Source of the DNA: Nitrospiria bacterium
Lineage (GTDB): Bacteria > Nitrospirota > RBG-16-64-22
NCBI GenBank assembly: GCA_919903025.1
Contig: CAKKSE010000071.1
Span: forward strand, 1-32,649
Direction: 5' to 3'
DNA: 32,649 nucleotides
The notes below the pieces were generated by a model. It had not been told where the DNA came from, ran no database searches, and was given only the letters and a program-made list of their open reading frames with translations. Below are positions 17,361 through 20,321 of this stretch, one piece after another. The first letter of the stretch is position 1, and each line of letters opens with the position of its first letter. The position numbers and the translations under genes were made by a program.

Positions 17361-18752
17361 ATGCCTCCACTGAAAATCGTCATCGTGGGTTCGGGTCCGG
17401 GGGGGTACGTGGCGGCTTTGAGGGCCGCCCGCCTCGGCGCGTCCGTGACGCTTGTCGAGAAGGAAAGACTTGGGGGGACGTGTCTCCAAAAGGGATGCAT
17501 CCCCACGAAAGCCCTCGCCGCTTCGGCCCGGATCGCGCGGAACGTCCGGCGGGCGGGCGAATTCGGCATCCGCCTCGCCGGGAAACCTGAAATCGATTTC
17601 GCGAGCATCCAGGAAAGGGCCAGAAAAGTCGTCGCGATCCAGGAAAAAGGTATTCGAAGCCTCCTTGAAAGCTGGGGTATCGAGATCGTCCAGGGAACGG
17701 CGCGGCTGGAGAAAAGCGGGACCGTCGCCGTCCAAAACGGGAGCGGGGAGCGGAAGATCTTTGCGGACAGGACCATTCTGGCGACCGGGTCGAAGCCGGC
17801 GGAGATCCCGGGGATCCCGATCGATGGCGAAAGGATCCTGGACAGCGACGCCCTGGTCTGGACGAACGGTCTTCCCGAACGCCTTCTTATTGTCGGCGGC
17901 GGCGTCATCGGGTGCGAGTTCGCCTCGATCTTTTCGGCGCTGGGAGTGAAGGTTCTCGTGGTCGAGGCGCTGGACCGCATCCTCGCGAATGAGGACGAGG
18001 AGATATCCGCCCTCCTCTCGAAGGAATTCAGGAAGCAGGGGATCGAGGTCGAGACCGGCACGGCCGTGAAAACCGCCAGCCGGGACGGCTCCGCCGTCCG
18101 CGTGGAATTCGGAGAAGGGCGAACGGAGACGTTCCAGGCTGTCGCCTTGACGGTGGGGCGAAGGCCAAGAACAGGCGGCCTTGGCCTCGAAGAAGCGGGT
18201 GTCCGTCTCGCGGCGCGGGGAGAGGTCGTCGTAGACGCATCGATGCGGACTTCGGCGGACGAGGTGTACGCCGTCGGGGACATGACCGGGGGTCTCCTCC
18301 TGGCCCACACGGCCTCTCACCAGGGGTTGGCCGCAGCCCATCACGCCGTAACAGAAAAGGGAGAGTACGATCCAAGTGTTGTTCCCTGGGCGGTATTTAC
18401 GTATCCAGAGATTGGGCGGGCCGGACTGACGGAACGCGAGGCTAAGGAGAAGTTCGGCGAGGTCCGGATCGGCCGGTTCCAATTCCGGGGGCTCGGAAAG
18501 GCTCATGCGATCGGCGAGATCAGCGGATTGGCCAAGATCGTGGCAACCGGGCAGGGACAGATCGTCGGGGCACACATAATCGGCGCCGAAGCCCCCGACA
18601 TCGTCCAGGAGCTGGCCCTTGCGATTGAAAAAAAGATGACGCTGGCAGACATTGCGGAAAGCATCCACATCCACCCAACGCTTTCAGAGATCGCAGGCGA
18701 GGCGGCGCTGTCTGGCCTGGGAATGGGAATCCACGAACCGCGGGCAAGGTAA
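17361..18752 (+). CDS. lpdA: Dihydrolipoyl dehydrogenase (E3)
   Basis: A flavin disulfide oxidoreductase that reoxidises dihydrolipoamide in 2-oxoacid dehydrogenase or glycine cleavage complexes. The 463 residues show the FAD dinucleotide motif GSGPGG (10-15) and the redox-active pair C41-x4-C46 in GGTCLQKGCIPTK. The NAD-binding GGGVIGCEFASIFSALG, VYAVGDMTGG, and the catalytic H438-x4-E443 in HPTLSE follow. All catalytic residues are present, so this is a genuine E3 and not a diverged relative. No E1, E2 or gcv genes are nearby. It is the last gene before the putative terminus site. Confidence 0.93.
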   Translation: MPPLKIVIVGSGPGGYVAALRAARLGASVTLVEKERLGGTCLQKGCIPTKALAASARIARNVRRAGEFGIRLAGKPEIDFASIQERARKVVAIQEKGIRSLLESWGIEIVQGTARLEKSGTVAVQNGSGERKIFADRTILATGSKPAEIPGIPIDGERILDSDALVWTNGLPERLLIVGGGVIGCEFASIFSALGVKVLVVEALDRILANEDEEISALLSKEFRKQGIEVETGTAVKTASRDGSAVRVEFGEGRTETFQAVALTVGRRPRTGGLGLEEAGVRLAARGEVVVDASMRTSADEVYAVGDMTGGLLLAHTASHQGLAAAHHAVTEKGEYDPSVVPWAVFTYPEIGRAGLTEREAKEKFGEVRIGRFQFRGLGKAHAIGEISGLAKIVATGQGQIVGAHIIGAEAPDIVQELALAIEKKMTLADIAESIHIHPTLSEIAGEAALSGLGMGIHEPRAR

Positions 18753-18773
18753 GATGTGGGATGGGGAAGGCCG

Positions 18774-18801
18774 GATTGCGCATATGCATATTATGTTAAA
18801 T
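18774..18801 (+). other. dif-like Xer recombination site, left copy
   Basis: The last 11 bases (18791-18801, TTATGTTAAAT) equal the XerD-binding half of E. coli dif, preceded by TGCATA where E. coli has TGTATA. The outer half reads GATTGCGCATA; allowing one missing base, its TGCGCATA aligns with the XerC half of E. coli dif. The XerC half is thus shifted, and this copy may be degenerate. Confidence 0.55.
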
Positions 18802-18839
18802 TGTCACGCCCATTTCGACAATTTAACATAATATGTATT
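18783..18839. repeat. Perfect 19-bp inverted repeat spanning the two dif-like sites
   Basis: The arm at 18787-18805 (CATATTATGTTAAATTGTC) is exactly complementary to 18817-18835, with an 11-base spacer at 18806-18816. Pairing continues outward to 18784/18838 with a single mismatch. The spacer and missing T-run argue against an intrinsic terminator. Confidence 0.9.
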
Positions 18840-18848
18840 ATCGGACAC
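18821..18848 (-). other. dif-like Xer recombination site, right copy (best match)
   Basis: Read on the minus strand it has the 28-bp dif plan: an 11-bp XerC-like arm GTGTCCGATAA, a 6-bp centre TACATA, and an 11-bp XerD arm TTATGTTAAAT. Compared with E. coli dif, the XerD arm is 11 of 11, the centre 4 of 6 and the XerC arm 6 of 11, the last including the conserved inner ATAA. The inner TTAT/ATAA symmetry around a 6-bp core is exactly that of XerCD sites. The site is intergenic and lies where the GC skew of sampled lines changes sign. Confidence 0.7.
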
Positions 18849-18986
18849 TTGCCACTCTTAGCACGTCATTCCCGCGAAAGCTGTGAAACATCACACTTTC
18901 CCTTAAAGGCCCATTACCTTGTATTTATCGTTAGGATTCAACGCGCAAGATATTGAGAAACAAGGCATTACTTTAGATCCGGCATT
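18849..18986. other. AT-rich non-coding island after the dif-like sites
   Basis: Bases 18781-18960 are only about 38% G+C by hand count, against 60-65% around. I see no gene here; a 66-codon frame (18756-18956) runs through the palindrome and is not credible. Bases 18864-18880 look like half of a CATTCCCGCGAAAG-type intergenic repeat, with its mirror arm missing. Confidence 0.5.
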
Positions 18987-18989
18987 GTG

Positions 18990-20321
18990 ATGCCCGCCGA
19001 CATTTCCTTCCTGCGGAAACCGCCGCCCGTATACTTGATCGGCGCCTCTCTTGTCATCCAGGATGCCCGAACCATCATTCCCTCCGGCGGATTACTCGTC
19101 CGAGACCGGATAGTTGAAGAAGTGTGTACTTTTAAAGCTTTACGGACAGAACATTCATCCTCATTCTATCGTTTTCTCCCGGATTCGATCATCCTTCCAG
19201 GCCTCGTAAACGCCCACGCCCACATCGAGCTATCATCGCTTGGTCCGCTGAACGGCTCTCAAAATGGCTTTGTCCCCTGGTTGATCGACCTCGTCCGCCG
19301 AAGAGCGTTGATTTCACCTGGAGCCCGTTCCGCCGGGTTCAGAATGGGGCTGAACAGCATCCTCGCTTCCGGAACGACATCAATCGGAGACATTGCCTCC
19401 TTCGGTTTTCCCGCGGAATCCCTTGATATCCCTGCCCGACGATCCTATCTCGCGCGTTCCGGTCTACGGACGCTCACGTTGATCGAGGCCCTCGGTCTCG
19501 ATCCGTCTCAGGCCCGGGACAGAGCGGCCGCTCTCGACAACCGCATTCAGGAAAACGCTCGCCCCGTTTCCCCATTCCGTCGTCTCCGGTTCGGCGTTTC
19601 GATCCACGCTCCCTATTCCGTTTCGGACGATCTCGCCTCCTCCGTGGCCCGCCTCGCCCGCCGCCGCTCACTTCCCATTGCCGCTCATCTTCTCGAAACC
19701 CCGTTCGAGCGGAACGTCCCCCGCCGCCGCCCGGCCTTCCGGGAATATTGCGCCGCCTTCGGCTGGGATCCGGCGTGGCTCGACGACCGCCCGTCTTCAC
19801 CCATCGAGTGGCTCGACCGCCATCATCTCCTCACCCCGAATACGCTCGCCATTCACGGCATCCATCTGAACCAACGCGAAATGACCGCGCTCGCTCGACG
19901 CAGGATATCCCTCGTCCTTTGCCCCAGGAGCAACTTGTACCTGCACGACAGACTTCCCCCCGTCCGCGAGCTCGTCGGGAGGGGCGTTCCGCTCGCAATC
20001 GGGACCGATTCCCTGGCCAGCAATTTCTCGCTCTCCCTCTGGGACGAGATCCGCGCCCTCCATGAACGATTTCCCGAAATCCCCCCTTCACGCCTTTTCG
20101 AGATCGCCACGGCGGGAGGCGCCGCGGCCCTGGGTTTGGCCGGCCGCGTCGGCGTTCTTCACGCCGGATACTGCGCGGACTTCACCGTTCTCCGCCCGCC
20201 CTTTCGCGTGGACACCGAGCGCCGCCTCTTCTATAATCTCATTCGTTCAGCGCAAGACGCCCACGTTCAAGGCGTGGTCACCGATGGACGCCTGCGCTTT
20301 CAGAGGACCATCCAGCCGTGA
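18990..20321 (+). CDS. Amidohydrolase, probable aminodeoxyfutalosine deaminase
   Basis: A ~443-residue amidohydrolase-superfamily enzyme of the cytosine deaminase/ATZ-TRZ type. Metal ligands are visible in NAHAHIELS, the SIHAPYS histidine block, HLLETPFE, and GTDSLASN with the catalytic aspartate; CPRSNLYLH is also typical. It overlaps mqnE by 4 bp and precedes mqnC, so deamination of 6-amino-6-deoxyfutalosine in menaquinone synthesis is the likely role; this is inferred from context. The start is unclear: GTG 18987 and ATG 18990 are adjacent and no Shine-Dalgarno is seen. The first ~50 codons are less GC-rich than the rest, blending into the AT-rich dif region. Confidence 0.8.
   Translation: MPADISFLRKPPPVYLIGASLVIQDARTIIPSGGLLVRDRIVEEVCTFKALRTEHSSSFYRFLPDSIILPGLVNAHAHIELSSLGPLNGSQNGFVPWLIDLVRRRALISPGARSAGFRMGLNSILASGTTSIGDIASFGFPAESLDIPARRSYLARSGLRTLTLIEALGLDPSQARDRAAALDNRIQENARPVSPFRRLRFGVSIHAPYSVSDDLASSVARLARRRSLPIAAHLLETPFERNVPRRRPAFREYCAAFGWDPAWLDDRPSSPIEWLDRHHLLTPNTLAIHGIHLNQREMTALARRRISLVLCPRSNLYLHDRLPPVRELVGRGVPLAIGTDSLASNFSLSLWDEIRALHERFPEIPPSRLFEIATAGGAAALGLAGRVGVLHAGYCADFTVLRPPFRVDTERRLFYNLIRSAQDAHVQGVVTDGRLRFQRTIQP

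Follow-up and report, generated by a model that had tools for sequence, protein, structure and literature searches.

Does an inverted XerD half-site beside a dif sequence mark a native chromosomal dif with a duplicated arm, a second dif, or the scar of an element that exploits Xer recombination? The question is raised by an intergenic locus in a draft genome of a Nitrospiria bacterium, which was analysed within a window of 32,649 nucleotides (the whole stretch of DNA under study). The preliminary description of this DNA had reported two exact, facing XerD half-sites, and both were recovered: copies of TTATGTTAAAT, identical to the XerD arm of E. coli, lie at 18791-18801 (plus strand) and 18821-18831 (minus strand) with 19 bp between them, and no further match with two or fewer mismatches was found elsewhere in the 32-kb window. 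The right copy has the full dif geometry that had been assigned to it, with XerC arm, core and XerD arm all present in a complete 28-bp site (18821-18848, minus strand: GTGTCCGATAA-TACATA-TTATGTTAAAT). The surrounding inverted repeat (18784-18838) is real, but what had been called a perfect palindrome is a near-perfect hairpin, with 22-nt arms of which 21/22 positions pair (95% complementary) and an 11-nt loop. Folded as single-stranded DNA, the region formed one hairpin (z = -4.8 relative to shuffled sequences, 0/200 of which were equally stable). A search of the window for tRNAs and known RNA families returned none. The features of the locus are as follows.

18821..18848, minus strand: chromosomal dif, assigned from its sequence, its being the sole good match in the genome, the KOPS-like polarity and the skew
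18838-18848, minus strand: XerC arm of dif, GTGTCCGATAA
18832-18837, minus strand: core of dif, TACATA
18821-18831, minus strand: XerD arm of dif, TTATGTTAAAT
18785..18801, plus strand: mirror copy of the XerD half
18785-18790, plus strand: core-like TGCATA of the mirror, 5/6 identical to the dif core
18791-18801, plus strand: exact XerD arm of the mirror
18774..18784, plus strand: XerC-like flank of the left copy, GATTGCGCATA, not conserved in congeners and probably non-functional
18784..18805, plus strand: left arm of the inverted repeat, comprising the mirror half and the inner stem TGTC
18806..18816, no strand: loop separating the arms, ACGCCCATTTC
18817..18838, minus strand: right arm of the inverted repeat, comprising the inner stem GACA, the dif XerD arm and the core
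17361..18752, plus strand: lpdA, dihydrolipoyl dehydrogenase, its 3' end abutting the mirror copy; the same neighbour is present in the congeners G001 and G002
18987..20321, plus strand: on the XerC side of dif, an aminofutalosine deaminase-like gene, with mqnE and mqnC after it

The right copy is very probably the native dif, as judged from its uniqueness in the genome, the GC skew, the polarity of KOPS-like sequences, the pair of Xer proteins and the single dif of Nitrospirota. A search of the draft assembly (2.86 Mb, 230 contigs) detected the two copies at this locus and elsewhere just matches with three mismatches, in no excess over a control pattern; neither a motif repeated many times nor a better dif was found in it. 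Fifteen of the 18 KOPS-like octamers (GGGNAGGG) were oriented toward dif (p = 0.004), and GC skew in the window was positive at 16-19 kb and clearly negative rightward of dif, with the left half near zero. The genome encodes one XerC-like protein and one XerD that scores above the curated cut-off; additional Xer-like proteins were not matched in it. Occurrence once per genome, which had been proposed as a check, also held in relatives: a dif of the same pattern was detected in 241 of 341 sampled Nitrospirota genomes, nearly always as a single copy, and in a second sample 92 of the 93 related genomes having a dif had a single one. XerC and XerD would be expected to resolve chromosome dimers on the right copy, the ordinary dif of the cell. 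Like an ordinary chromosomal dif, it is a 28-bp site with an XerC arm, a 6-bp core and a canonical XerD arm, single, intergenic and located at a polarity switch; an ordinary dif stands alone, whereas here the XerD half is mirrored alongside, producing the 22-bp hairpin stem. A unique dif at the KOPS and skew switch accompanied by a mirrored XerD half supports the earlier suggestion of a native dif with a duplicated arm.

The left copy was compared with its counterparts in Nitrospirae NC_groundwater_891_Pr1_S2p5_65_34 (G001, contig JACPZO010000120) and Nitrospirae RBG_16_64_22 (G002, contig MHEK01000079). In each of the three genomes of the genus, the palindrome lies at the equivalent place beside lpdA, whose protein product is 85-86% identical in the two congeners. 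In G001 and G002 the XerD arm is TTATGTAAAAT in both copies of the pair, indicating that the change was mirrored. From core position 3 through inner position 4, all pairs were kept in 3/3 genomes, with double changes at XerD position 7 and at inner positions 1, 2 and 3, so the stem sequence differs while pairing stays. G001 and G002 do not share the XerC-like flank found at the left copy. Judged from the pairs kept in the congeners and the flank that they do not share, the mirror is the XerD half of dif, consisting of the 11-bp arm and the four inner bases of the core, with no conserved XerC arm, and a second functional dif at the left copy was ruled out. The left copy does align with E. coli dif minus one base, as had been pointed out, but because neither congener conserves its XerC-like part, the likeness to a whole E. 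coli dif is probably a coincidence. We infer that XerD could probably bind the mirror half, which should be unable to recombine since it has no XerC arm and differs at core positions 1-2. A genome of the same class (G003) carries a more distant, imperfect inverted half with 2/15 mismatches, 75 bp inside dif.

We then counted the arrangements of half-sites in 222 sampled dif loci (132 from Nitrospirota and 90 from Desulfobacterota), accepting an inverted XerD half with up to 2/15 mismatches within 250 bp. An inverted XerD half was present on the XerD side in 7/222 loci, which are not seven independent events, as three belong to one family. No locus had any other arrangement of the XerD half or any of the four arrangements of the XerC half (0/222), apart from one directly repeated whole dif. 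That exception, L297 (G010:C54:17951-18090), contains two whole difs, 117 bp apart and in direct orientation, the first of which adjoins an N gap; it is possibly an assembly artefact. No decayed mirror was found on the XerD side of the 222 loci, with nothing at 3 mismatches and the next matches having at least 4. Among 396 Nitrospirota genomes, the facing pair occurred in 7 and a direct-repeat pattern of equal information content in none, which ruled out direct repeats as an equally common arrangement. Given the seven inverted cases on the XerD side and the lack of other arrangements bar G010, the mirror is a real feature, specific to one half and one orientation, of a few percent of difs (~2-3% of those sampled). 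A chance inverted repeat in AT-rich intergenic DNA is very improbable as its origin: under a uniform expectation 0.05 cases would fall in 222 loci against the 7 seen, the palindrome is present in 3/3 congeners, and a reversed control pattern had no matches. Chance could account for a few looser matches (three or so, e.g. L092, L115 and L122) among the 29 loci of a wider survey.

In that survey, ~85,000 genomes were scanned for facing XerD arms, yielding 78 loci. Many of these had no XerC arm and were excluded as palindromes of another kind or accidental matches; the 29 loci analysed, including those fetched for Nitrospirota, had one copy with an XerC arm or a dif cut by a contig end. About 26-29 loci with dif plus mirror thus came from Nitrospirota, Desulfobacterota, Myxococcota, Calditrichota and a few other groups. 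At core positions 1 to 6, mirror and dif were identical in 3, 4, 19, 26, 26 and 29 of the 29 loci, identity at position 6 being imposed by the search pattern, and the step between positions 2 and 3 was significant (p = 0.0001, with rows that are not all independent). Identity to the XerC arm was near chance across 28-29 loci. The mirror thus usually stops in mid-core. Inner stems averaged 4.1 bp, compared with 0.4 bp in shuffled gaps, and the spacing ranged from 4 to 29 bp between lineages. Seven Desulfobacterota loci upstream of xseA, an exonuclease VII gene, retain the palindrome, with a spacing of 28-29 bp in 6/7, and long stems are kept while their sequences change, the neighbouring proteins being just 47-90% identical. 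Between L108 and L137, the spacer is inverted, with 7 differences in the forward comparison and 2 after reverse complementation.

Several further arrangements were encountered in the scan. Tandem repeats with units of ~23 to 93 bp that contain an inverted XerD half-site lie on the XerD side of dif in L093, L080, L126, L061 and L141; L093 has three inverted half-site copies in 23-bp steps. Two palindromic dif-like loci of the same MAG, nDJH13bin5 (L080 and L124), have the inner sequence TCCTTCAGA in common, for which an integration product and contamination are possible alternatives. Five loci of Oscillospiraceae/Eubacteriales type (L077, L083, L102, L105 and L127) consist of TTATGTAAACT, a mostly G+C-rich stem of ~19 nt and AGTTTACATAA without an XerC arm, and this element is a different recurrent palindrome. 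A further short palindrome, also conserved, was observed in Oscillospiraceae (L107, L112, L121 and L138); its arms are XerD-like and its flanks nearly constant.

The inverted pair resembles the CTX-phage attP1/attP2, in which two dif-related sequences in opposite orientation are able to fold back as a hairpin, and integration of that phage leaves a rebuilt dif beside dif-like sequences (PMC3089051). It could accordingly be the scar or attachment region of a mobile element, and contig ends at dif, or within a few dozen bases of it, may reflect strain-level insertions or rearrangements: contigs start at dif in G001 (C125, L061) and G002 (C79, L062), and two contigs of G120 (C28 and C61; L332 and L333) end there. 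In CTX attP, both inverted sites have XerC arms, the XerD arms are imperfect and the sites are ~90 bp apart (PMC3089051), whereas the site here is chromosomal, with perfect XerD arms 19 bp apart and no second XerC arm, and no phage genes adjoin the pair within the window. The mirror is without an XerC arm in essentially all loci, no decayed copies were found among the sampled loci, and only one of 19 matches on viral contigs (L164) is dif-like with a full XerC arm. In that case (L164:68-114), at the end of a viral contig with an SU10-like portal protein gene, a dif-like site faces an inverted XerD arm. The flanks here are lpdA and menaquinone genes, with the lpdA neighbour kept in the genus, and in three species the arms are free of decay. 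The suggestion of a CTX-like scar thus fared poorly; a mobile origin is unlikely, and an integrated element that has since been lost is formally conceivable.

Many loci, that of the window among them, have on their mirror side the end of a gene that reads toward the mirror, as would be seen if the hairpin were a transcription terminator that had recruited the XerD arm into its stem. This is quite unlikely, since no terminator-like site (a G+C-rich stem followed by a T run) was found at 18500-19200, stems of the xseA group are mostly AT-rich, and L085, L125, L136 and L290 have no gene reading toward the mirror side. Inclusion of the whole arm and the usual mid-core stop would also be left unexplained.

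We consider an inverted duplication by template switching at dif, with arm identity maintained by further switching, to be the leading explanation, at a probability of roughly 0.45. Xer complexes and converging forks are to be expected at dif, and a switch of template during replication there would create an inverted duplicate of the XerD half that is cut off mid-core. Through further switching, one arm would be rewritten from the other, and selection would preserve dif itself; this would explain why a near-perfect palindrome persists. Tyrosine recombinases form transient covalent links with DNA at the edges of the dif core, and these links make dif a plausible hot spot for template switching. 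DNA-protein crosslinks are described as stimulating template switching in E. coli (PMC6357072). Template switching during replication makes inverted copies, homogenises imperfect arms and can invert a spacer (PMC8794818, PMC8604942). The locus resembles template-switch quasipalindromes in its inverted copy and its homogenised arms, and a spacer inversion was seen between two relatives of the wider set. The double changes at paired positions in the genus and in the xseA group are a sign of arm homogenisation, although selection on structure would look alike, and the one clear spacer inversion (L108/L137) lies outside the genus of the window, within which none was seen; it could alternatively have arisen by Xer-mediated inversion between the two halves. 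Unlike quasipalindromes in general, the mirror is found repeatedly at a single specific site across many lineages, and its boundary usually falls at the same point within the recombination core. This boundary in separate lineages, the placement on the XerD side alone and the survival in three congeners are not obviously predicted by switching alone. That the template switch was linked to Xer is inferred.

The same boundary, together with the restriction to the XerD side, the tandem multiplication and the retention in every congener, would also fit a selected accessory element, which we therefore keep as a serious rival and regard as possible. Here the mirror would be a second docking site for XerD, or a hairpin or cruciform presenting one, and it is likewise possible that its role would lie in XerD loading, in shaping the Xer synapse at dif or in marking the terminus, e.g. 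for SMC unloading. The mirrored unit is the arm plus inner core, which would correspond to the footprint of one recombinase by analogy with other tyrosine recombinases. Where present, the mirror is near-perfect, tracks changes in the XerD arm between species, usually ends short of a recombination-competent site and is sometimes tandemly multiplied; selection for more XerD sites would account for the tandem copies as well. XerD has a documented second role at the B. subtilis terminus, at XerD-specific sites (XDS) for SMC unloading (Karaboja 2021, as cited in PMC10945525 and PMC12322038). Like XDS, the mirror is an XerD half-site that lacks a full dif and lies in the terminus region, and XDS is the closest functional idea, although the mirror is inverted and directly attached to dif, and no scattered half-sites occur in the 32-kb window. 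Against an accessory role, the low proportion of difs with a mirror indicates that it is dispensable in most lineages, its spacing differs between lineages, there are no more XerD half-sites in the 32 kb around dif, and core position 3 changes in step with each lineage's own dif, as a binding site alone need not. That several lineages have evolved or kept a previously undescribed accessory dif element, modulating XerD loading, Xer synapsis or terminus handling, is somewhat unlikely. Template switching and an accessory role are not exclusive, as an accident could later have been retained for a function.

The open-access literature searched yielded no account of a mirrored or inverted XerD half beside dif (subscription papers lay outside the search). 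dif is among the most conserved single-copy sites in bacteria, and here exactly one recombinase half-site of it is recurrently mirrored, usually with an end inside the core. This points either to copying errors that Xer complexes provoke while the terminus is replicated or to the use of an additional XerD site by some lineages. Both readings can be tested in E. coli, whose XerD arm is identical.
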